Below, one piece after another: positions 37,019 through 48,874 of a stretch of DNA of 64,000 nt. Source of the stretch: Streptomyces sp. NBC_01244 (GTDB taxonomy: Bacteria > Actinomycetota > Actinomycetes > Streptomycetales > Streptomycetaceae); assembly GCF_035987325.1 (NCBI RefSeq), contig NZ_CP108488.1, forward strand, positions 6,324,001 to 6,388,000. Reading direction: 5' to 3'. The position numbers were made by a program, and so were the translations under genes. The notes beneath the pieces are model-generated. The model was not told the origin of the DNA. It did not search any database and was given only the letters and a program-made list of their open reading frames with translations. Positions within the stretch are counted from its first letter, which is position 1. Each line of letters opens with the position of its first letter.

Positions 37019-38146
37019 TCAAGCGGAGCTCCGCTTGCGCGGCGGCGTCGCCGCCTTCTTGGCAGCGGCCCGCGCCGGCTTCCCCTCCGCGGCCTTGGCC
37101 GAGGCCGTCTTCTTCACGGCCGTCGTGGCGGCCTTCTTCTTCGCGGCAGAGGCAGAGGCAGCGGCCGCAGCCGTCGACTTCTTCGCAGCACCGGAGCCCG
37201 ATGCCGACCCAGCCGCCGACGCCGTCGACTTCTTCCCGCCCACCGCCTTCGGGGCAGCCGCCCGCCCGGCCCCCTTCCGCCGAATCGGCGTAACCTCAGC
37301 CCCAGCCCCAGCCCCCTCGGCCTCGGCCCCCGCCTCCCCCTCCGACGCAGCCGAACCCGCCCCCGCCCGAGAAGCCTTCGCCGCCCGCACGCTGTTCTCC
37401 AACGCCGCCATCAGGTCGATGACCTGCGCACCCGCACCCTCCGCCGGCGGCCCCGCCACCACCGGTTCACCCGTACCCGCCTTCGCCGCGACCATCGCTT
37501 CCACCGCCTCGCGGTAGTCGTCGCGCAGCGAGTCCATCTCCACCTCCCCCAACGTCGCCATCAGCGCATCCGCGAGGTCCAGCTCGGCCTCCCGCACCGA
37601 CACCTCGCCCTCGGGGGCCACCCCCTCCGGAACCCGGATCTCGTCCGGCCACAGCAGCCCGTGCATCGCGATCACGTCGTCGACGACCCGCAGCATGCCG
37701 AGCCGTTCCCGCCCCCGCAGCGCGTACTTCGCGATCGCGACCTTCCGGCTCCGCTTCAGCGCCTCCCGCAGCAGCGTGTACGGCTTGGCCGCCGTGGCTC
37801 CGCTCGCCGCGAGGTAGTACGCCGCGTCCATCTGCAGCGGATCGATCTGATCGGCAGGAACAAACGAAACGATCTCGATCGTCTTGGCGGTGGCGATCGG
37901 CAGCTGCGCCAGATCCTCGTCGGTGATCGGAATGATCGACCCGTCCGCCTCCTCGTAGCCCTTGCCGATCTCGGCGGTCGACACCTCCTCCCCGTCCAGC
38001 TCGCAGACCTTGCGGTAGCGGACGCGCCCGCCATCGCTGACATGGATCTGGCGGAAGGAGATCGAGTGGCTCTCGGTGGCGTTCACGAGCTTGATCGGAA
38101 TGCTGACCAAGCCGAAGGAGATCGCCCCGTTCCATATGGATCGCAC
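37019..38146 (-). CDS. ku: Ku DNA-end-binding protein
   Basis: A 375-residue bacterial Ku homodimer subunit for non-homologous end joining. The core (residues 1-260) begins RSIWNGAISFGLVSIPIKLV and contains ADQIDPLQMDAAYYL and RGRERLGMLR. Residues 270-375 are a Lys/Ala-rich tail with repeats such as KKSTAAAAASASAAKK and KKAATTAVKK, resembling histone-H1-like tails that add DNA binding. GTG 38146 follows AGGAGG. It is divergent from the polymerase gene with 31 bp between start codons. A -10 TACGAT on the minus strand overlaps the start codon of that gene. Confidence 0.96.
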   Translation of the reverse strand: MRSIWNGAISFGLVSIPIKLVNATESHSISFRQIHVSDGGRVRYRKVCELDGEEVSTAEIGKGYEEADGSIIPITDEDLAQLPIATAKTIEIVSFVPADQIDPLQMDAAYYLAASGATAAKPYTLLREALKRSRKVAIAKYALRGRERLGMLRVVDDVIAMHGLLWPDEIRVPEGVAPEGEVSVREAELDLADALMATLGEVEMDSLRDDYREAVEAMVAAKAGTGEPVVAGPPAEGAGAQVIDLMAALENSVRAAKASRAGAGSAASEGEAGAEAEGAGAGAEVTPIRRKGAGRAAAPKAVGGKKSTASAAGSASGSGAAKKSTAAAAASASAAKKKAATTAVKKTASAKAAEGKPARAAAKKAATPPRKRSSA

Positions 38147-38165
38147 GGTTCCTCCTGTTTCGTGG

Positions 38166-38171
38166 CAATCT
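38166..38171 (+). promoter_or_regulatory. -10-like hexamer CAATCT of the LigD polymerase gene
   Basis: CAATCT ends 6 nt before the ATG, and no Shine-Dalgarno is visible. The 31-bp interval to Ku therefore carries back-to-back promoters. Confidence 0.35.
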
Positions 38172-38177
38172 CATCGT

Positions 38178-39062
38178 ATGACGCCGATCACCCTGGTGGA
38201 GGGCCGTCGCATTTCGCTCAGCAACCTCGACAAGGTCCTCTACCCGGAGACCGGTTTCACCAAGGGCGAGGTCCTCCACTACTACGCCACGGTCGCGGGC
38301 CCCCTGCTCGCCCACATCCACGACCGCCCGGTGTCCTTCCTGCGCTATCCCGACGGCCCGGACGGACAGCTCTTCTTCACGAAGAACCCGCCGCCCGGTA
38401 CCCCCGCCTGGGTGAAGACCACCCCGGTGCCCCGCTCGGAGGACCTCCGGGCCGAACAGGTGGTCGTCGCCGACCTGCCCACCCTCATGTGGGCCGCCAA
38501 CCTCGTCGTCGAGTTCCACACCCCCCAGTGGCCGGCCGGCGCCCCCGCCCTGGCCGACCGCCTGATCTTCGACCTGGACCCCGGCCCGCCCGCCACCGCC
38601 GTCGAATGTTCCGCCGCCGCCCTCTGGCTCCGGGACCGCCTCGCCGCCGACGGCCTCCACGCCTTCCCCAAGACCTCCGGCTCCAAGGGCCTCCACCTGG
38701 TGGTACCCCTCGAACCGACCCCCTCCGAGCACGTGTCGGCGTACGCGAAGACCCTCGCCCAGGAGGCCGAAGGCGAACTCCCCGACCTGGTCGTGCACCG
38801 GATGACCAAGGCGCTGCGCCCCGGGAAGGTCTTCGTCGACCACAGTCAGAACGCCGCCGCCAAGACCACCGCGGCCCCCTACACCCTGCGTGCCCGCGCC
38901 CTGCCCACCGTCTCCGCCCCCCTCTCCTGGGCGGAGGTCGAGTCCTGCAGGACCCCTTCCGACCTGGTCTTCCTCGCCGACGACATCGCCCCCCGGCTGG
39001 CCCGCGAAGGAGACCTCTTCGCCCCGCTCCTCGACCCCGCCCTGGCCGGACGGCTCCCGTGA
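38178..39062 (+). CDS. LigD-type DNA polymerase (archaeo-eukaryotic primase superfamily)
   Basis: A 294-residue stand-alone polymerase domain of the LigD type, which fills gaps and adds nucleotides at ends held by Ku. Motifs: catalytic Asp pair in IFDLDPG, KTSGSKGLHLVVPL (sugar/phosphate contacts) and KVFVDHSQN. In mycobacterial LigD this domain is fused to nuclease and ligase domains; here polymerase and ligase are separate genes joined by a GTGA overlap. No LigD-type 3'-phosphoesterase domain is present in this locus. Confidence 0.95.
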   Translation: MTPITLVEGRRISLSNLDKVLYPETGFTKGEVLHYYATVAGPLLAHIHDRPVSFLRYPDGPDGQLFFTKNPPPGTPAWVKTTPVPRSEDLRAEQVVVADLPTLMWAANLVVEFHTPQWPAGAPALADRLIFDLDPGPPATAVECSAAALWLRDRLAADGLHAFPKTSGSKGLHLVVPLEPTPSEHVSAYAKTLAQEAEGELPDLVVHRMTKALRPGKVFVDHSQNAAAKTTAAPYTLRARALPTVSAPLSWAEVESCRTPSDLVFLADDIAPRLAREGDLFAPLLDPALAGRLP

Positions 39063-39973
39063 TCACCGTCGCGCTCGCCGTGGCCGTACGCTCCCTGCCG
39101 CGCGCGCCCGGTCTCGCGTACGAGCCCAAGTTCGACGGTCACCGCCTCGTCGTCATCCGCACCGACCGCGCCGTTGACGGGGTGATCCTCCAGGCCCGCT
39201 CCGGCCGCATCGTCACGGCGGCCTTCCCCGACCTCGCGGCGGCCGCACACCACCTGCCCGCCGGGACGGTGCTCGACGGGGAGGTGGTGGTCTGGCACGC
39301 GGGCCGCACCGACTTCGCGCTCGTACAGCGCCGGGCGGCCGCCGCCTCGGCCGCGCGGGCCGCCGTGCTGGCCCGGACGCTCCCGGCCTCGTACGCGGCC
39401 TTCGACGTACTGGAACTCGCCGGGCTCGACCTGCGCTCCCGTCCCTACGAACGCCGGCGCACCCTCCTCGTCGACCTTCTCCTGCCCCTGGGCCCGCCGC
39501 TCCAGCCGGTCCCGATGACCACGGACCCGGAGCTGGCGGAGACCTGGTACGAGACCCTGCCCGCCAGCGGCATCGAGGGCCTGGTCGTCAAACGGATGGA
39601 CCAGTCCTACCCCGCCGGCCGGCGCGGCTGGCAAAAGCTCCGCCACACCAACGTCCGCGACGCGGCGGTGGTCGGCTACACGGGCACCGCCCGCCGCCCG
39701 CTCGCCCTCGTCCTGGTCCTGCCGGTCGGCGACGAGACCCCGCTGGTCTCGAGCCCCCTGACGGCGCCGCTGCGCGCGGAGGTGGCGGCGGCGGTGGCCG
39801 CCCGCGACCCGGCCCCTGGCACTTCCCGGGGCGCCACGAGCGCCACCATCACGGCCATCGGCCTCGGCGAGGTCCCCTTCCACCCCCTGGACCCGCCCCT
39901 GACGGCCGAGGTCCGCCACACCTCGACCCGCCACCCGCCCCCGGAGGTCCTGCGCCTGCGCACAGACCTGTGA
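39059..39973 (+). CDS. ATP-dependent DNA ligase (LigD/LigC-like)
   Basis: A 304-residue ATP-dependent DNA ligase. Nucleotidyltransferase motif I is EPKFDGHR with the AMP-accepting Lys24; motif III is YAAFDVLEL; motif IV EGLVVKRM; motif V WQKLRHTN. An OB-fold domain follows. The GTG start overlaps the polymerase stop (GTGA), so the two are produced together and with Ku complete an end-joining set. Confidence 0.94.
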   Translation: MITVALAVAVRSLPRAPGLAYEPKFDGHRLVVIRTDRAVDGVILQARSGRIVTAAFPDLAAAAHHLPAGTVLDGEVVVWHAGRTDFALVQRRAAAASAARAAVLARTLPASYAAFDVLELAGLDLRSRPYERRRTLLVDLLLPLGPPLQPVPMTTDPELAETWYETLPASGIEGLVVKRMDQSYPAGRRGWQKLRHTNVRDAAVVGYTGTARRPLALVLVLPVGDETPLVSSPLTAPLRAEVAAAVAARDPAPGTSRGATSATITAIGLGEVPFHPLDPPLTAEVRHTSTRHPPPEVLRLRTDL

Positions 39974-40528: not shown

Positions 40529-41512
40529 TCACCCCCGGAGCGGGCCGTCCGCGTCCCGCACCCCGCGCACCTCGCGCCCGCCGAGCACCGCCAGGATCTC
40601 CGCACAGATGGCCAGCGCCGTCTCCGCCGGAGTCTGCCCGCCCAGGTCCAGGCCGATCGGCCCGTGCACCGTCCGCAGCCGCTCCTCGCTCACCCCGGCC
40701 GCGAGCAGCCCCTCGCGGCGCCGCGCGGTGGTCTTGCGGGAGCCGAGCGCCCCGACGTACGGCACCCCGAGCGCGAGCGCGGTCCGCAGCGTCGGCACGT
40801 CGAAGTCCGGATCATGGCTCAGCATCGCCAGACAGGCGGCGTCCCGCCGGGCCTCGAGCAGCTTCTCGGCCTCGCCGACGGCGGTGACGACGCTGACCTC
40901 CCACCCGAGCAGCCGGGCCTGGGCCTCGATGACCTCGGCCAGCTCCCCGGCCCCGCCGATCACCACGTACGGAGCCGACGGGTACGCCTCCACGAGCACC
41001 AGCCCGGACCCCGCGTACAGCGCGTCCCGGCCGGGCCGCCTCGTCCTCAGCAACTCCCCGGCCCGCCGCTCGGCGTCACCGGACGGCTGATCGGCACCCC
41101 GCACCACGACACTGACGGCCTGGTCCGCCCGCTCGTTCAGCTGGGTCACGAGCGCGACGCCGACCCCCTGCCCGAGCAGCTCCCACCACTCACCGGGAAT
41201 CGCACCGAGCGGCTGCAACAGCACCTCGGCCTGCCCGCCACACGTCAGCTTCGCCTCGACGGCCTCGCCGCCGCCCACGGAAACCTCGCACACCCGCGCG
41301 GTCTCCCCGGCCCCCATGGAGGCGGCCTCCGCCACCAGCTCGGCATCGAACACCCCCCGGTACAGGGCCCCGACGCACTCCCCGCGCGCATCCACGAGCA
41401 CGGCCCCGGCGGGATCCCGGGGCCCGAACCCCTGCTCGGTCACGGGCCGTGCCAGAAACCCGACCCGCCCCTCGGCCACCCACTGTCGCGCCGTCTCCAC
41501 CAAGTCACGCAT
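40529..41512 (-). CDS. XdhC/CoxI-family molybdenum cofactor insertion protein
   Basis: A 327-residue protein of the XdhC/CoxI family, which binds molybdenum cofactor and helps insert it into xanthine-dehydrogenase-type enzymes. N-terminal domain with AGAVLVDARGE and the conserved TCGGQAEVLLQPL; C-terminal Rossmann domain with YVVIGGAGELAEVIEAQARL, MLSHDPDFD and YVGALGSRKT. The ATG at 41512 begins RDLVETARQW; an ATG at 41527 could extend by five residues. No dehydrogenase subunits are nearby, so it probably serves an enzyme encoded elsewhere. Divergent from the Rad50-like module. Confidence 0.9.
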   Translation of the reverse strand: MRDLVETARQWVAEGRVGFLARPVTEQGFGPRDPAGAVLVDARGECVGALYRGVFDAELVAEAASMGAGETARVCEVSVGGGEAVEAKLTCGGQAEVLLQPLGAIPGEWWELLGQGVGVALVTQLNERADQAVSVVVRGADQPSGDAERRAGELLRTRRPGRDALYAGSGLVLVEAYPSAPYVVIGGAGELAEVIEAQARLLGWEVSVVTAVGEAEKLLEARRDAACLAMLSHDPDFDVPTLRTALALGVPYVGALGSRKTTARRREGLLAAGVSEERLRTVHGPIGLDLGGQTPAETALAICAEILAVLGGREVRGVRDADGPLRG

Positions 41513-41602
41513 ATCGCGCCGCCCCATCCTCACCGTCAGAGCACGCCACAAAGCCCCAGACCCGCAACCGAAGTGGCCTCCCTTCCAACCTACGCACGCA
41601 CA

Positions 41603-41787: not shown

Positions 41788-44175
41788 GTGAGCGACCGGC
41801 CCTTACCCACCCTGCGCGACCTGGTTCTGGGCCGCCTCGCCCGTTCCGCGCTGACACCCGCGGCGCGGGACCTCGTGGCCGAGTTGCTGCCCGAGGTGCG
41901 GGTGAGGAGCGCCGGCCGGTCCGGGCCCGTGTACCTGAGGTCGATCTCGGCGGCCGGCTGGCGCGGCATCGGACCGGCCGCGGCGCTGGAACTGACACCG
42001 GGCCCCGGCCTCACCGTGGTCGCCGGCCGGAACGGCTCGGGGAAGTCGAGCTTCGCCGAGGCCGCCGAGATGGTCCTGACCGGGGACAACTTCCGCTGGC
42101 AGGACCGCACTCAGGTCTGGAAGCAGGGCTGGCGCAACCTCCACGACCCCTCCGCCCCGCAGGTTTCGGTCGAGCTCTGCCCGGACGGCGAGAGCCTTCC
42201 GCTGACCGTGCGCAGGAGCTGGCACGGTGACGGACTGGAGGACTCCCGGACGGTCGCGCACCGGCCCGGCATGCCCGAGCAGGACCCGCGCGAGGTCATC
42301 GACGCCGAGGACCTGTCGCTCTACCGGCCGTTCCTCTCGTACAGCGAGCTCGGCGCGATGATCAACGGGCGGATGAGCGCCCTGCACGACGCGCTCGCGC
42401 AGATCCTCGGACTGGACCTGCTCAGCGACGCCGACAACGAAGCCCGGGCCCGCGCCAAGGTCCTCACCGACACGGTCACCCGCGCCGCTGAGCTGAACCG
42501 CGCCGTGACCGCCGAGCTGGCCGAGTCGGACGACCCGAGGGCCGCCGAGGCCGTCGCGGCGCTCGGTGGACGCACCCCGGACCTCGACCGGCTACGCGCC
42601 CTGCTCAACGGCCACGTCGCGACGGACGGCACCGAGCTGGCCCGGCTGCACCGCCTCGCGGGTCTGGAGGGCCCCGACCCGCGCGAAGTGGCGGGCGCGG
42701 TCGCCCGGTTGCGGGAGGCCGCCGCGGCTGCCGAGGACGTGCGGTTCGGCGCCGCCGAGGACGCCAGGCAACTGATCGGACTGCTGGAGCGCGCGCTGGA
42801 CCACCGGCGCCGCCACCCGCGGTCCGAGGACTGTCCCGTATGCGGTGCCGGGAGCCGCCTCGACGAGGTCTGGGCCGTGGGAGCCCGGGAACAGGTCGAA
42901 CGCCTCCAGCGGGAGGCGGCCACGGCGCAGAGCGCGCGTGAGGCGCTGGCGGCCGCGGTGCGGGCCGCGCGTGACCTCGTACGGCCCGTTCCGGGCTGGC
43001 TGCAGGGTGCCGACTCGCCGCTCGCCCTCCTCTGGTCCGAGTGGGCGGCCTGCCGGGAAGCCGCGGACCCGCGCGAACTCGCGGACCGGGTCGAGCGCGT
43101 GGCGGCCACCCTGGCGGACGCCTGCCGCAAGTCGGGCGAGGAGGCCGCGCACCGGATCGCGGAGCAGGACGGCCGCTGGCAGCCCCTTGCCCTGCGCCTC
43201 GCCGAGTGCCTGCGCGACGCCGAGGCCGCGGAGGCGGCCCGGCCGCTGATCAAGCAGATCAAGGACGGCCGCGCGTGGCTGAAGAAGGTCACCGGCGAAC
43301 TGCGCGAGGAACGGCTCCGGCCCTTCGCCGAGCAGTCGCAGACCATCTGGAACCTCCTGTGCGAACGCAGCAGCGTCTCACTCGGCTCGATCAGCCTCGC
43401 CGGCACCGCCAACCAGCGGAAGGTGGTGCTCGACGCCTCCGTGGATGCCATCGACGCGCCCGCCTTCGGCGTGATGAGCCAGGGCGAGCTCCATTCGCTC
43501 GCCCTCTCGCTGTTCCTCCCGCGTGCCACACATCCCGGCAGCCCCTTCGGCTTCCTGGTGATCGACGACCCGGTGCAGTCCATGGACCCGGAGAAGGTCG
43601 AAGGGCTCGCCCGCGTCCTCCAACTCTGCTCCCGGACCCGTCAAGTGGTGGTCTTCACGCACGACACCCGCCTCCAGCAGGCCCTCCGTCAGCTCCGCGT
43701 CCCCGCGACGATCATGCAGGTCTCCCGCCAGACGGACTCCGTCGTACGGGTCACCCGGACCGACGACCCGGTCTCGCTCGCGCTGGGCGAAGCCCGGGCC
43801 GTGGCCGCGGACCGCAATGTGCCGCAGGAGGTCGCCGATCGAGTGCTGCCCCAGATGTGCCGAGGAGCACTGGAAGCGGCCTACCTCGAACCGGCCCGGC
43901 GCCGACTGCGCGGCGACGGCCACGGCCACGACGAAGTCGAGGCCCGGATCAGCGGCACGCACGAGCTCACCGAGCTGGCCGCGCTCGCCTTCTACGACAG
44001 CGCGATGGCGCCGGCCGAGGTGCTCGCCGCGGTGGCCCGGGACCACGGACCCTGGGCACGCACCCTGATCGAGCGGTGCAACGCGGGCGCCCACCAGGCT
44101 CCCGCCCGGTCCGGCGCCAACGGGGACCTGGTCCGGGAAACCGAGCGGCTCGCCAGGGCGGTGCAGCGCCGGTGA
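41788..44175 (+). CDS. Rad50/SMC-like AAA ATPase with half zinc-hook (module gene 1)
   Basis: A 795-residue ABC-type ATPase of the Rad50/RecN/SMC kind. Residues 48-78 (YLRSISAAGWRGIGP) lead into Walker A GRNGSGKSS at 80-88. A long coiled arm with CPVC at 349-352 (a single half zinc-hook) divides the two ATPase halves. The signature motif is MSQGELHS near 563, Walker B FLVIDDPVQSMDP near 592, and the His switch VVFTHDTRL at 625. A C-terminal extra domain (residues 680-795) ends ERCNAGAH...; no nuclease, TOPRIM or HNH motif is recognised. GTG 41788 has AAGGAG at 6 nt. It overlaps the next gene by GTGA. Likely a DNA-structure or end-sensing ATPase; precise role unknown. Confidence 0.85.
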   Translation: MSDRPLPTLRDLVLGRLARSALTPAARDLVAELLPEVRVRSAGRSGPVYLRSISAAGWRGIGPAAALELTPGPGLTVVAGRNGSGKSSFAEAAEMVLTGDNFRWQDRTQVWKQGWRNLHDPSAPQVSVELCPDGESLPLTVRRSWHGDGLEDSRTVAHRPGMPEQDPREVIDAEDLSLYRPFLSYSELGAMINGRMSALHDALAQILGLDLLSDADNEARARAKVLTDTVTRAAELNRAVTAELAESDDPRAAEAVAALGGRTPDLDRLRALLNGHVATDGTELARLHRLAGLEGPDPREVAGAVARLREAAAAAEDVRFGAAEDARQLIGLLERALDHRRRHPRSEDCPVCGAGSRLDEVWAVGAREQVERLQREAATAQSAREALAAAVRAARDLVRPVPGWLQGADSPLALLWSEWAACREAADPRELADRVERVAATLADACRKSGEEAAHRIAEQDGRWQPLALRLAECLRDAEAAEAARPLIKQIKDGRAWLKKVTGELREERLRPFAEQSQTIWNLLCERSSVSLGSISLAGTANQRKVVLDASVDAIDAPAFGVMSQGELHSLALSLFLPRATHPGSPFGFLVIDDPVQSMDPEKVEGLARVLQLCSRTRQVVVFTHDTRLQQALRQLRVPATIMQVSRQTDSVVRVTRTDDPVSLALGEARAVAADRNVPQEVADRVLPQMCRGALEAAYLEPARRRLRGDGHGHDEVEARISGTHELTELAALAFYDSAMAPAEVLAAVARDHGPWARTLIERCNAGAHQAPARSGANGDLVRETERLARAVQRR

Positions 44176-44612
44176 CCCAGCCCGTCCGCGACCTCGTCGC
44201 CGCCGCCGGCCAACTGCTCACGCCACCGCCCGGAACCCTGCCCGGCCTCACGCCCGCACTCGAGCCCGGCCTCACGCCCGCACTCGAGCCCGCCCTCACG
44301 CCCGGCCTGCGCGCCCGCGCCGCGGCCGCCCTGCTGCGGCTGGCGCTGGACGAGGCCATGGACGACTTCTGGCGGAGCACCAGCCCCGGCATGGTCCACA
44401 GCCGGGGCCGCACCAAAGCCCTGTGCCTGGAGTGGTACGCGAGCCCTTCGGTGGCGCGCCGGTGGTACGTCGTCCGGTCGGCCCTCAGCGCGGCATGTCA
44501 CCACCACACCTACGAACTCCCGCCCACGCCGGCCGAGGTCAGGGCCTGGCACGCGGACGTCACGGAGCTCCTGCGAGCCATGCCCTCGGATACGGCCGCC
44601 GTCCGGCCCTGA
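44172..44612 (+). CDS. Small protein coupled to the Rad50-like ATPase (module gene 2)
   Basis: A 146-residue protein of unknown family. Residues 20-42 contain a duplicated GLTPALEP unit encoded by a perfect 24-bp tandem repeat (44244-44291). The rest is helical, with ALDEAMDDFWRST, RWYVVRSALSAACHHHTYEL and PTPAEVRAWHADVTELL; the HHH and Cys pair could bind metal, but that is a guess. Its GTG overlaps the ATPase stop, implying equimolar production and a joint complex. Confidence 0.72.
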   Translation: MTQPVRDLVAAAGQLLTPPPGTLPGLTPALEPGLTPALEPALTPGLRARAAAALLRLALDEAMDDFWRSTSPGMVHSRGRTKALCLEWYASPSVARRWYVVRSALSAACHHHTYELPPTPAEVRAWHADVTELLRAMPSDTAAVRP

Positions 44613-44638
44613 CCGCGCCACGAAAGGAACCGCACCGC

Positions 44639-46276
44639 GTGGACACCCGCCGCTACCGCATGGTCGTCACCAGCGGACTCGACTACGTCGGCACGGGAGC
44701 CCTGGTCGACGACCGGCTCCGCAGCTGGCTGAAGGAACCCCCGAAGACCTACGACATCGAGGCGTTCGCCGAAGGACGCAACGAGATAGCCCGCGGCGTG
44801 ACCCTCGACCACGACTCCGCCACCGGGACTTCAGGAGCGTACGGCCGCTGGCGGCTGCGGGAGACGACCCCGGACGGCACCTGGCAGACCACCGTACTGA
44901 TCCGGCAGACCGGAGCCGGACCGACCTGGGTCCAGCTGGACGTCGAGCACCTGCCCGACAGGCCTGACGTCTTCCCCACACCGGCCAAGACCCCCCGTCT
45001 CGCCGGGAGCCTGCTCGACGTGCTCCGAGCGCGCGACGGGCTCGCCGACGTGACGCGGATGCCCCAGGTCATCGAGGTCGACGACGTCCACTCCGTCATA
45101 GACGAGCTCTGCGACGAGAAGCGGCGCCTGCCCGTCGTCGTGGCCAGTACGCCCCACGGCGTGGACTTCGACGCCTGGCTGGAACGCACCGTGGACCCGC
45201 TGGTCCGCCCACTGGCCGGCCTGGCCATCCTCTACGTCCTCGCACCCGAGGCCGAGCCGTACTTCAACCGGGCCCTGGAATACCACCAGGTCTTCGCCGG
45301 CGGGATCCGTACGTACCTGCCGGGAGTGGACCCGGCCTGGGCGGCCGACGGCCAGCGCCACCGCGTCCTGTCCCGCCGGACCATCACCGAGACCCCGCAC
45401 CGGGCCCGGGGCCTCCTCGCCCAGCTACCGCAGCGCCTGGCGATCCAGGCCCCGTTGCCCCCGGAACTCGATTCCGTACCCGTCCTCCGGGCCCGCACCA
45501 AGGAGGGCGTCGGGACGTCCGAGCTGGAGCGCCTGAGGGACGAGAACCACGCCCTCTTCGAGATCCTGGAGGAGGCGGGACGAGAGCAGAGGGCCCGGGC
45601 GGACGAGATCCGCGGCCTGAAACGGGAACTGCACGAAACCCAACAGGGCGAGTCGATGCTGGTCGGCGAGTACGACGAGCAGTACCGGGAACTCCACGGA
45701 GTCAAGGCCCAACTACTGGCGGTCCAGAAGCGACTCCTGATCCTCAACGCAGCCGAAGCCGCGTACACCCCGGTCGAACCCGGCCCCCCGGGGCCCGCCT
45801 CCTTCGCGGAGATCCTCGACCGGATCGCCGACATGCCGCGCGTCCACTTCACCGGCTCCCGCAAGGTCACCCTGGAACTCGACGACCAGGCGTACGGCTC
45901 CTCCTGGGGCCGCATGACCTGGGATGCCCTGCTGGCCCTCCAGGACTACGCCGACGCCGCAGCCGACGGTGAGGCCACCCGCGACTTCAAGCAGTGGTGC
46001 GAGGACGTACCGGAGGGCAAGCACTCCATCTCCCCGCGGAAAATCATCCGCGACGAGTCGAAGTCGGTGAAGACCAAAGCCGACTGGCGCAAGGAACGCA
46101 CCTTCCCGGTCCCGGAGCACATCGACCCCGCCCGCAAGCTCTTCATGGGCGCGCACGTCAGGATCGGCGGCGGCAACACGATCGCCCCGCGCCTCCACTA
46201 CTACGACGGCGCCTGCGCCACCCACGGCATCTTCATCGGCTACATAGGCCCGCACCTCACGAACACCCTCACCTGA
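44639..46276 (+). CDS. Coiled-coil protein with unassigned C-terminal domain (module gene 3)
   Basis: A 545-residue cytoplasmic protein that I do not recognise. Residues 1-150 are a beta-rich N-terminal domain. Residues 163-245 form an alpha/beta segment with LPVVVAS and FAGGIRTYLPG. Residues 293-370 form a coiled coil (SELERLRDENHALFEILEE onward). Residues 385-545 form a compact C-terminal domain with VHFTGSRKVTLELDDQAYG, FKQWCEDVP, a HSISPRKIIRDESK segment and APRLHYYDG...IGYIGPHLTN. No nuclease signature is evident, though an unrecognised one cannot be excluded. The GTG at 44639 follows AAAGGA, 26 nt after gene 2. It probably forms the effector or adaptor of the module. Confidence 0.75.
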   Translation: MDTRRYRMVVTSGLDYVGTGALVDDRLRSWLKEPPKTYDIEAFAEGRNEIARGVTLDHDSATGTSGAYGRWRLRETTPDGTWQTTVLIRQTGAGPTWVQLDVEHLPDRPDVFPTPAKTPRLAGSLLDVLRARDGLADVTRMPQVIEVDDVHSVIDELCDEKRRLPVVVASTPHGVDFDAWLERTVDPLVRPLAGLAILYVLAPEAEPYFNRALEYHQVFAGGIRTYLPGVDPAWAADGQRHRVLSRRTITETPHRARGLLAQLPQRLAIQAPLPPELDSVPVLRARTKEGVGTSELERLRDENHALFEILEEAGREQRARADEIRGLKRELHETQQGESMLVGEYDEQYRELHGVKAQLLAVQKRLLILNAAEAAYTPVEPGPPGPASFAEILDRIADMPRVHFTGSRKVTLELDDQAYGSSWGRMTWDALLALQDYADAAADGEATRDFKQWCEDVPEGKHSISPRKIIRDESKSVKTKADWRKERTFPVPEHIDPARKLFMGAHVRIGGGNTIAPRLHYYDGACATHGIFIGYIGPHLTNTLT

Positions 46277-46396
46277 CGGTGGATGCGGCCTGCCCGCCGA
46301 AGGGGAGCGGCGGGCAGGCCGGGGCAGCCGGCTCCACCACGGGGCCGCCCCCGGCCGTGGTATCGGGAAGCCCGTATGCCGCCGCACCCCTCGCAC

Positions 46397-46402
46397 TACG
46401 CT
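46397..46402 (+). promoter_or_regulatory. -10 hexamer TACGCT of the helicase-associated protein gene
   Basis: TACGCT ends 6 nt before the GTG start at 46409, with no ribosome binding site between. It fits a leaderless transcript. Confidence 0.5.
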
Positions 46403-46408
46403 GGCGGG

Positions 46409-48874
46409 GTGAACTCGCGCACCGCCTTGGAGAAGTGGCTCAAGCAGCTCCCCGAACACCAGCTGACCGCCCTGCTTGAGGAACGGGATCTCCCTCTCGC
46501 TGTCGGTTACACCCGCATCACGACTCCCCGCCAACTCGCCGAGCACCTGCTCACGGACGAGTCGGTGGCGCGCGGACTGACCGCGGGGACCGCCGGCGAG
46601 ATGGAGCTCCTGGCCTCGATCGCCGCCCTGGCCCTGCGACAGCACGGGCCGGTCGCGGAGGAGGCCGCGGCCCGGCCTCAGTACGGGTGGCGTCCCGTGC
46701 CGGTCGCCGTGCCCGTGGAGCCGTCCGAACGCCTGGTGCCGGAGAAGGACGTGCTGGACTGGTTCACGCCGGGCGGCGCGCGCGAGCGGGCGGCGGAGGC
46801 GATCGCCCGGCTACGGGAACGCGCGCTGCTGCTGCCGGCGCCGCAGGGCCGGCTGGCGATCCCGCCCCTGCTCCACGTCCGGGCGGCCGGCTTCGACGGC
46901 TACGGCCGGCCGGCGGACCGGCTGCTGACCGCCGCCTACAACGCGCCGGAGGTCAAACGGATCGCCTCCCTGCTGTTCGGCGAGAGTGCGGCACGCACCC
47001 GCCCCGAGGCCCAGGCCCGCATCACCGCCCTGCTCGCCGATCCGGGCCGGGTCCGCGACCTGGTGTCCCAGGCGCCGTCGGCGGCCCGCGAGCTGCTGGA
47101 CAATCTGGTCCTCGGGCCACCCCTGCTGCGCACCCACTGCTTCGTCACCCAATACGGCTCGTACGCGGGACCCAGTGCCAAGTACACCTTCCGGGAGGGC
47201 GGCAGCGGCGACGAGGGCACCGACTGGCTCGCCGCACGCGCGCTACTCCTGCCCGCCGGCCCGGACCTGGCGGAACTCCCGTACGAAGTGTCCCGCGCCC
47301 TGCGCGACGGCGAGGGGGCGCCCTGTCCCCGCTTGGAGCCGGAACCGCTCACCCACACCGTCCCGCTGCCGCGCGGCTGGGACGGCCAAGGGGGAGCCGC
47401 GGCCGGAGCGGCCGCCTGGCGCGCGGAGCTGGTCCTACGGGCGCTGGCCGCGCAGCCGGTCGCCGTACGCAAGGCGGGCGGCATCGCCGTACGGGACACC
47501 CGGCGCCTGGCCAAGTCCGCCGGTGCGAGCGAGGCGGACACCCGCCTGTGGCTCGACCTCGCCGTGAACGCCGGCCTGGCCGCCCCGCAGGCCGACGAGC
47601 CCGAGCCCGCCCGCCGCAGGCGGCAGGCGACACCCAAGCCCGCGGCCCGCCTCCTCCCCAGCGACCGCTACGACCCGTGGGCGGCGGCCCCGCCCGCGGG
47701 CAAGCTGCTGCCCCTGCTGGCCGCCTGGGCGGTGGTGCCCGAGGTGCTCACCCACTGGCCGGACGACGGCGAGACCCCGGTGGCGCTGATCAGCCCGCAG
47801 GACGCGTACGCCGTCCCGCTGCGCCGCGGAACACTGCGCGCGCTCGGCGGCCTGGCGCCAGGCCAGGGCCTGACCCTGACGGCGGAGTCGTACACGGAAC
47901 TACTGGAACGGGCCGCCTGGCACCAGCCGTTGCTGAGCTCCCTCCTCGCGAACGACGCGGCGGGACGGCTGCTGGGCGATGACGACATCGCGGGCCGCCT
48001 CCGGTCGACCCTGGAGGAGGCCGAGCTGCTGGGCCTGGTAGCACACGGCGCCCTCACCCCGGCCGGACGTGCGGTCAGCGCTCTCCTGGAGGCGGGCGCG
48101 GGCCACCACTACCCCGCCGTTCCGGGCGCGGGCACGGACCCGGCGGCCCTCGGAACGGACGGCCTGGGCGAGGACCTGACCGCCCGCCCGGCTCTTGCCC
48201 GGGCGGTGAGCAACCTCCGCGCCGCCCTGTACGAAACACTTCCCGCGCCCAGCACCACCACACGCTTCCAGGCGGACCTGACCGCCACGGTCACCGGAGC
48301 CCCGGCCCCGGACCTCGCCGAACTCCTCTCCGCGGTCGGCGACATCGAGTCGGAGGGCCACGCGGTCGTCTGGCGGATCACCGCGGCTTCCCTCCGCCGC
48401 GCGATGGACGCGGGCTGGAGCGCCGACGAGCTCCTGGACCGACTGACGGGGGTCAGCGAACGCGAGACACCACTCCCACAACCGCTCACCTACACGATCA
48501 AGGACACGGCCCGCACCCACGGACAGCTGCGCGTCGTCCGCTCGGCCTGCTGCATCCGCTCCGACGACACCGCCCTGATCACCGAGGTCGCGCAAGCCCG
48601 CGGCCTCGCCAAACTAGGCCTGCGCCGCATCGCGCCCACGGTCCTCATCTCAGCGGCCCCGCCGGAGGAGACCCTCTCAGCCCTCCGTCTGGCCGGCTAC
48701 GCCCCCACCCAGGAGGCCGCCACCGGCACCACGGTCCTGGACCGCGCCCCCACCGAACGCGCGCGCAGCTTCCTACGCACCCTGGACGAAGCACACGGCC
48801 AGCCCGGCGAAGGGACACGCGGAGCCCCCTCCAGCGCCCGCGCCCTGGCCGCCCAACTCCTGGACCGGAGCTGA
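46409..48874 (+). CDS. Helicase-associated (Helicase_C_3) domain protein
   Basis: An 821-residue protein of the type annotated as helicase C-terminal/XPB-associated domain protein in Streptomyces. The N-terminus NSRTALEKWLKQLPEHQLTALLEERDLP is characteristic. The central part is a chain of winged-helix-like helical modules. The C-terminal region LPQPLTYTIKDTARTHGQLRV and VRSACCIRSDDTALI matches the helicase_C_3 pattern. No Walker A or B motif is found, so it is not itself a helicase. These proteins are usually thought to work with XPB-type helicases in repair. GTG 46409 is the best start; the frame upstream is noise. Confidence 0.85.
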   Translation: MNSRTALEKWLKQLPEHQLTALLEERDLPLAVGYTRITTPRQLAEHLLTDESVARGLTAGTAGEMELLASIAALALRQHGPVAEEAAARPQYGWRPVPVAVPVEPSERLVPEKDVLDWFTPGGARERAAEAIARLRERALLLPAPQGRLAIPPLLHVRAAGFDGYGRPADRLLTAAYNAPEVKRIASLLFGESAARTRPEAQARITALLADPGRVRDLVSQAPSAARELLDNLVLGPPLLRTHCFVTQYGSYAGPSAKYTFREGGSGDEGTDWLAARALLLPAGPDLAELPYEVSRALRDGEGAPCPRLEPEPLTHTVPLPRGWDGQGGAAAGAAAWRAELVLRALAAQPVAVRKAGGIAVRDTRRLAKSAGASEADTRLWLDLAVNAGLAAPQADEPEPARRRRQATPKPAARLLPSDRYDPWAAAPPAGKLLPLLAAWAVVPEVLTHWPDDGETPVALISPQDAYAVPLRRGTLRALGGLAPGQGLTLTAESYTELLERAAWHQPLLSSLLANDAAGRLLGDDDIAGRLRSTLEEAELLGLVAHGALTPAGRAVSALLEAGAGHHYPAVPGAGTDPAALGTDGLGEDLTARPALARAVSNLRAALYETLPAPSTTTRFQADLTATVTGAPAPDLAELLSAVGDIESEGHAVVWRITAASLRRAMDAGWSADELLDRLTGVSERETPLPQPLTYTIKDTARTHGQLRVVRSACCIRSDDTALITEVAQARGLAKLGLRRIAPTVLISAAPPEETLSALRLAGYAPTQEAATGTTVLDRAPTERARSFLRTLDEAHGQPGEGTRGAPSSARALAAQLLDRS

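Follow-up and report, generated by a model that had tools for sequence, protein, structure and literature searches.

The window analysed here, a stretch of 64,000 nucleotides from Streptomyces sp. NBC_01244, carries three consecutive genes on the forward strand, each with a GTG start. Gene 1 (41788..44175) codes for 795 amino acids, a Rad50/SMC-like ABC ATPase with a CPVC half zinc hook and a C-terminal domain with the pattern R-x3-E...H; gene 2 (44172..44612) codes for 146 amino acids with a HEPN-like predicted fold; and gene 3 (44639..46276), which codes for 545 amino acids, is a clade-specific third gene. The four-nucleotide overlap between genes 1 and 2 (GTGA, 44172-44175) and the 26-nucleotide spacer between genes 2 and 3 (44613-44638) were read in the sequence, which bears out the layout given in an earlier note on this DNA, namely, genes of 795, 146, and 545 residues with a GTGA overlap and a 26-nucleotide gap. 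AAGGAG lies 5' of the gene 1 start and AAAGGA 5' of the gene 3 start. Since the GC3 of genes 1 to 3 (0.905-0.915) is similar to that of the neighbouring genes, all three are taken to be coding. The variable site that they occupy is flanked on the left by an XdhC-like gene on the reverse strand (40529..41533; Pfam XdhC_C), which is 91% identical in locus L244, and on the right by a gene on the forward strand for a Helicase_C_3 protein (46283..48874; Pfam), of which L244 has a truncated 71% homologue.

Gene 1 loci were collected from stretches longer than 6 kb if they exceeded 250 bits in the profile search. This gave 50 loci and, because L002 and L171 are the same in sequence, 49 distinct gene 1 sequences, two of which are not full-length (the N-terminal part is missing from L190, and L213 ends after E696). 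Genes in the relatives were predicted by a caller that uses GC3; for L003 and L029 it ran gene 3 across gene 2, and this was resolved by tblastn. The gene 1 protein has a Walker A motif at residues 80-88, the signature SQGE at 564-567, the Walker B/D-loop IDDPVQSMD and the H-loop HD, and the ATPase residues examined are fully or almost fully conserved among the 49 distinct relatives. Within DDPVQSMD (43564..43587, forward strand) Asp594 replaces the usual catalytic Glu in 49/49, and C349 and C352 of the half hook (residues 349-352; 42832..42843, forward strand) are both present in the 48 sequences that cover it. The protein scored 50.3 bits with Pfam SMC_N and 48.3 bits with AAA_21, and the PDB sequence search matched three Rad50/Smc sequences. 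The earlier reading of gene 1 as a Rad50/SMC-type ATPase with a CPVC half hook and an extra C-terminal domain, the latter at about residues 660-795, therefore stands. Outside the 50 loci more degraded copies of gene 1 were seen in L009 and L022/L172, and genome G307 has a second copy that is split (C18).

The C-terminal domain of gene 1 (residues 660-795; 43765..44172, forward strand) is HEPN-like by residue pattern only. R692, E696, and H769 are each present in all 48 sequences with a full C-terminus, L213 being omitted from this count and from alignment A8. In 32 aligned C-terminal fragments the sole invariant columns are R692, E696, G711, and H769, and the remainder of this region is mostly variable. 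The string ERCNAGAH in gene 1 was considered as a canonical HEPN Rx5H motif and dropped because its Arg is found in just 10 of 48 sequences. Gene 2, on the other hand, can be recognised by its predicted fold, which looks HEPN-like. An Arg, an acidic residue and a His (R56, D60, and H110) are among its most conserved positions; the acidic residue, which is Asp in 20 of 48 sequences, is separated from the His by X49, and H110 is present in 49/49. The canonical HEPN Rx4-6H motif is absent from gene 2, there being no conserved Arg 5-7 residues ahead of H110. No significant similarity emerged when gene 2, the C-terminus of gene 1, and the RloC-like HEPN domain were compared HMM to HMM. When alignments of gene 2 and of the gene 1 C-terminus were searched against Pfam with an E limit of 10, only scattered single matches appeared, the best being VMAP-C in 1 of 32 at 0.0017, and the PDB sequence search with gene 2 and gene 3 gave nothing below E 0.1. 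Relatives of gene 2 without gene 1 were also seen, intact in L246 and short in L247, while L245 and L248 have gene 2 matches without any called gene 2.

Genes 1 and 2 were found together in 50/50 loci collected. Strong matches to gene 1 (E <1e-60) are present in 21 of 150 genomes of the same family and in 15 of 296 in the phylum. The pairs recur in defence regions of soil actinobacteria, where they often adjoin restriction and other defence genes, and their neighbours vary between loci. Gene 3 was not detected within five genes of the 12 phylum-wide pairs and does not adjoin most of the same-family pairs. The scan for gene 3 kept 80 of 151 confirmed stretches, fetched with up to 10 kb on each side, some of which end at contig ends. 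Among the 23 gene 3 loci that are at least 70% identical, 17 are immediately preceded by complete copies of genes 1 and 2, four have no gene 1-2 match, and two have a partial gene 1 only; the more distant gene 3 clades make up the other 57 of the 80 loci, and the pair was found within the fetched stretch in one of them. Over 16 loci the identity matrices of gene 1 and gene 3 correlate with r 0.96. Gene 3 has been added to the gene 1-gene 2 pair in one Streptomyces lineage. Of the co-occurrence expected of all three genes, the part that concerns genes 1 and 2 was confirmed, but gene 3 is no obligate partner, and a single three-gene system, as the earlier note had it, was not borne out.

The structure model of gene 3 has an N-terminal beta domain, a thioredoxin-like fold (residues 140-266), a long coiled-coil helix (295-368) and a C-terminal alpha+beta domain (388-545); the helix agrees with the coiled coil that had been noticed before. 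In PADLOC, HEC-07 matches gene 3 at 69.3 bits over residues 76-392 only, and the NsnC model matches the C-terminal part only (390-542 at most). All of the 56 relatives of gene 3 that were scanned match both a HEC-07 and an NsnC model. For gene 3, Foldseek searches of PDB and of viral models gave no match at E <= 0.001, and the VIA rows of its fold search lie mainly over the thioredoxin-like region. Menshen, in which, according to excerpts of PMC10952713, NsnC is joined by an OLD-like nuclease and a protein with DUF262, was rejected because gene 3 matches NsnC C-terminally only and genes 1 and 2 have no DUF262 or TOPRIM. Gene 3 is probably a lineage-specific accessory, an adaptor or an extra effector, that is also found in DISARM-like loci.

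RloC, a zinc-hook anticodon nuclease of the PrrC/RloC group that cuts tRNA anticodons in response to DNA ends, shares with gene 1 a Rad50-like ABC ATPase, a CPxC hook insert, a DDP Walker B, and, by residue pattern, a C-terminal Arg-x3-Glu...His domain. The ABC ATPase motifs of the 49 distinct sequences and the CX2C hook insert of the 48 that cover it are both those by which RloC is recognised. The RloC triad is Arg-X3-Glu-X36-52-His, whereas the Glu-to-His spacing in gene 1 is longer (72); the spacing of 49 in gene 2 is RloC-like. Unlike RloC, gene 1 has a free second gene, predicted to be HEPN-like, beside it in 50/50 loci. With the RloC family models gene 1 scored 14.5 bits for AAA_13 (cut-off 36) and, for PDC-S06, 51.7 bits as against 204 in an RloC-like control, which is background-level only. 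A genome search with PDC-S06 gave no match, from which nothing follows. The RloC-like yardstick was 8 of 34 matched plasmid records, mostly from environmental species, with Xanthomonas and Vibrio among those left out. According to excerpts of two reports, PrrC is an ABC ATPase with a C-terminal HEPN nuclease and the same type of triad (PMC2610378, PMC3710099), and the zinc-hook insert belongs to RloC and not to PrrC (PMC2610378). PrrC goes with type I R-M genes, and some gene 1-gene 2 pairs likewise adjoin such genes. PrrC is not known to be accompanied by another, free-standing HEPN gene. In MntA-HepT and other HEPN-MNT toxins the partner is a minimal nucleotidyltransferase, whereas the partner of gene 2 is an ABC ATPase and gene 2 is without Rx4-6H.

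We propose, with a probability of about one half, that genes 1 and 2 are an RloC-like defence module in which a DNA sensor ATPase is paired with a HEPN-like RNase and gene 3 is accessory. The gene 1 protein would be a Rad50-like ATPase that dimerises via two half zinc hooks and senses DNA ends or damage, and its C-terminus would be a HEPN-like ribonuclease domain. Gene 2, on the same transcript and with coupled translation, would supply a second, free HEPN-like domain that pairs with gene 1. HEPN nucleases are typically dimers, and therefore the gene 1 C-terminal domain and gene 2 would make up the RNase between them. The ATPase would keep the RNase off while the cell is at rest; broken or phage DNA would release it, tRNA or other RNA would be cut, and translation would halt before phage are made, as a second line behind neighbouring restriction systems. 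It is possible, and we suggest it tentatively, that the enzyme is heterodimeric, with a single active site built from two unlike HEPN domains, of which one is fused to the Rad50-like DNA-end sensor and the other is the free protein, so that the sensor directly licenses RNA cleavage; the gene 3 protein, whose kind is also seen behind DISARM-like operons, would then re-target or boost this activity in a single Streptomyces lineage.

An unlikely alternative is that the HEPN-like domains are non-catalytic, the gene 1-gene 2 pair being a DNA-sensing scaffold whose HEPN domains do no more than dimerise or bind RNA, with the killing left to gene 3 or to a restriction system nearby. The missing Arg of Rx4-6H is in its favour, as HEPN domains without the motif are described as probably non-catalytic in an excerpt of PMC3710099, and several pairs adjoin R-M genes. 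However, the Arg, the acid, and the His belong to the best-conserved residues of either domain, and the C-terminus of gene 1 is otherwise mostly variable; moreover, no gene 3 turned up within five genes of the 12 phylum-wide pairs, and the neighbours vary by locus. That gene 3 is the effector of an obligate three-component system is improbable: the clade with 17/23 adjacent triples and the identity correlation speak for it, but 6 of the 23 loci lack a full pair, 56/57 other gene 3 loci are without the pair in the fetched stretch, and gene 3 was seen neither within five genes of the 12 phylum-wide pairs nor beside most same-family pairs.

We consider it decidedly improbable that the locus is a Lamassu (ABC-3C) system with gene 1 as LmuB, gene 2 as LmuC, the middle component, and gene 3 as the LmuA effector. 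There is a likeness in that both combine a small Rad50-like zinc-hook ATPase with a small partner and lie in defence settings (PMC10586767, in excerpt, gives the hook and the small middle gene for Lamassu), and LmuB is the best PADLOC match of gene 1 (65.9 bits). This score is about background because a true LmuB of the phylum scored 426.5 bits and the RloC-like control 59.0 bits. The LmuA and LmuC models match the Lamassu control locus (164.3 and 42.8 bits) but neither gene 2 nor gene 3 at E up to 1. In addition, the control has the order A-C-B, which differs from that of genes 1 and 2, its Walker B is DQPTQ whereas gene 1 has DDP in 49/49, its LmuB (647 aa) is without the long C-terminal extension of gene 1, and in genome G209 the gene 1-gene 2 pair lies apart from an LmuB locus of the same genome. 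A housekeeping Mre11-Rad50-type repair complex tied to the Ku, LigD polymerase, and ligase genes at 37019-39973 of the window is very improbable, Rad50-like as gene 1 is, given the patchy distribution of gene 1, the conservation of LigD and ligase in G448 although the cargo at the site is different, and the fact that neither gene 2 nor gene 3 matched an Mre11-type nuclease.

Membership of Gabija and of Mre11-Rad50/SbcCD was rejected as well. Gabija consists of GajA, with a TOPRIM domain, and the UvrD helicase GajB; among the PADLOC matches listed GajA matches residues 49-104 only, and genes 1 to 3 have no TOPRIM. For Mre11-Rad50/SbcCD, Pfam showed the partner, a calcineurin-like phosphoesterase, in neither gene 2 nor gene 3. 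The earlier note had likewise found none of the usual partner signatures, and no Mre11, TOPRIM, or JetD was found in genes 1 to 3 or in the scanned flanking genes. Its suggestion of an undescribed defence or repair system holds in that the locus is of defence type, has a Rad50-like ATPase base and defence neighbours, and has no whole-system match in the versions of Pfam, PADLOC, and NCBIfam used; it does not hold for the parts, which have relatives (gene 2 by its HEPN-like predicted fold, genes 1 and 2 by a residue pattern that resembles the RloC triad, gene 3 by HEC-07/NsnC). The full-text matches listed held no description of the gene 1-gene 2 pair, and a prior mention is possible.

If the RloC-like reading is true, the principle of RloC and PrrC, in which an ATPase senses DNA damage and RNA is cleaved, reaches an actinobacterial two-gene form for which these database versions have no system-level match, and does so in hosts with defences that few experiments have addressed. 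It also raises the testable question whether a pair of unlike HEPN domains builds a common active site that is switched on by a DNA end, and it separates out gene 3 as a portable gene found with unrelated defence operons. Phage records had no gene 1 match at E 1e-10; plasmid records were matched by both genes, three by gene 1 and two by gene 3.

Genes 1, 2, and 3 of the module lie on the plus strand of the window at 41788-44175, 44172-44612, and 44639-46276, respectively. The GTGA overlap between genes 1 and 2 and the 26-nt gap before gene 3, both described in the earlier note, are present in the sequence, and the module has plausible ribosome-binding sites and a GC3 that is normal for coding DNA. 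The core of this module is the gene 1-gene 2 pair. Gene 1 was collected from 50 loci, that is 49 distinct sequences of which two are incomplete, and gene 2 is the next same-strand gene after it in 48 of the 50 by gene calls; tblastn places it there in the remaining two. The overlap is exactly 4 nt in 41 of these 48 loci and the remaining values are -1 (three loci), -49, 14, 74, and 134. The identity matrices of gene 1 and gene 2 gave an r of 0.94 (47 loci, with species history still included), as is expected when genes are inherited together. We put the probability that genes 1 and 2 form a stable pair at about 0.97. Strong gene 1 matches (E below 1e-60) were found in 21 of 150 same-family genomes, and when 296 genomes from the whole phylum were searched by profile (E 1e-20), gene 1 turned up in 15.

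Variants of the pair were also seen. At locus L188 one gene 1 is followed by two tandem copies of gene 2, and L246 has a gene 2 (124 aa) that is intact but solitary, adjoining a 1,156-aa gene in a stretch lacking gene 1. At L213 (G378:C15) gene 1 ends after E696 and the next gene 2 lacks its N-terminal part, which is a broken or misassembled pair. Genome G121 carries two identically scoring pairs (C1:11497-14216 and 9634349-9637068), each about 11.5 kb from one end of the 9.65-Mb contig, the placement that terminal inverted repeats would give; an excerpt of PMC10482375 reports Lamassu as enriched at Streptomyces chromosome ends.

Gene 2 had no match in the curated libraries Pfam, PADLOC, and NCBIfam, and its predicted structure makes a HEPN fold highly probable. 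Gene 2 was compared across 49 distinct sequences: Arg56 is present in all 48 that cover the position, position 60 is Glu in 28 and Asp in 20, and His110 is present in 49/49. In gene 1, Arg692, Glu696, and His769 are each present in 48/48 sequences with a full C-terminus, and across 32 aligned C-terminal fragments no column is invariant except R692, E696, G711, and H769. Neither protein conserves the arginine that typically stands a short distance ahead of the His in HEPN domains. Judged by sequence, the gene 1 C-terminus is probably HEPN too. The gene 2 of the window has a 16-residue in-frame insertion with a repeated LTPALEPG-like unit (about 44241-44288), absent from 19 aligned relatives, and Arg at position 102, which is Trp in 47 of 49 sequences.

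These features are closest to RloC. According to passages of PMC2610378, the RloC catalytic triad is Arg-X3-Glu-X36-52-His, often with Ser before the His, every Ala mutant is inactive, and the CX2C hook insert marks a Rad50-like ATPase; a portion of PMC3710099 places the RloC and PrrC nuclease domains, fused to ABC ATPases, in HEPN. The nine RloC-like proteins examined have CPxC, DDP, and R-x3-E...HH. Gene 1 shares CPxC, DDP, and R-x3-E with them but differs in its E-to-H spacing of 72 and in its family-model scores. The pair was not filed as RloC, since it fails the family-model test and its HEPN profiles gave no significant alignment with those of RloC-like proteins. Lamassu was suggested by the best PADLOC match of gene 1, LmuB (65.9 bits), ahead of mad3 (53.7) and PDC-S06 (51.7); in Pfam, gene 1 matched SMC_N (50.3 bits) and AAA_21 (48.3 bits), and in NCBIfam all matches were far under cut-off, RecF being the best. 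A true Lamassu control locus from the same phylum scored 426.5 bits for LmuB, 164.3 for LmuA, and 42.8 for LmuC, with gene order A-C-B and Walker B DQPTQ. Since an RloC-like protein reaches 59.0 bits with the same LmuB model, the gene 1 score is about background and Lamassu identity was rejected. Genome G209 carries a Lamassu locus and a gene 1-gene 2 pair in separate places. Membership tests rejected Gabija, Menshen, and Mre11-Rad50. The full-text matches listed held no description of the pair, key papers lying beyond that search.

For the gene 1-gene 2 pair we propose an RloC-like mode of action. Excerpts of PMC3874168 state that RloC requires linear DNA for switching on and staying on and responds in vivo to DNA-break inducers. 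If the analogy holds, gene 1 would use its Rad50-like head and hook to detect DNA ends exposed by phage or restriction, and this would release a HEPN nuclease formed by the gene 1 C-terminus and gene 2. Whether the pair is an active RNase we regard as an even chance, and triggering by DNA ends is suggested tentatively.

A defence role for the pair is very likely. In full three-gene loci an McrB-like gene lies within three genes after gene 3 in 16/17 and McrC within four in 15/17, with genes for a UvrD helicase and for an N6 methyltransferase often following. At L002-L008, L013, and others the order downstream of gene 3 is McrB-like, McrC, UvrD helicase, and then the methyltransferase on the opposite strand; this recurring set could be a composite defence system itself. 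Other pairs neighbour type I restriction-modification genes, DrmMI, GmrSD, or UvrD-like helicases, and near some pairs no gene could be recognised as belonging to defence. The copy in the window is flanked on one side by an XdhC-like gene and on the other by a Helicase_C_3 gene. At the same chromosomal site in L244, a locus of the same genus (G448:C1:5140001-5159000), LigD (93%), ligase (84%), DUF6479 (88%), and XdhC (91%) are conserved and the module is absent; in its place are a type I restriction enzyme, methyltransferase, and specificity subunit, together with a gene weakly matching PD-T4-5/AbiD (28 and 20 bits), and the right end is a truncated helicase (71%). Because the cargo differs, the XdhC-helicase site is variable and holds defence-type genes in two genomes of one genus. 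Genes for bacterial end joining, namely Ku, a LigD-type primase-polymerase, and an ATP-dependent ligase, lie near the module at 37019-39973.

Gene 3 matched HEC-07 (69.3 bits, residues 76-392) and NsnC (29.4 bits, 468-540) in PADLOC, as did all 56 of the 56 relatives scanned, and its named close relatives are from Streptomyces (best 95%), which makes Streptomyces the very probable source of the window. A diverged gene 3 clade (L024, L027, L028, L030-L032, L039, L044, L045, L055, L057, L069, and L074) stands behind helicase-DpdE-DrmMI runs that are DISARM/Hma-like, without genes 1 and 2.
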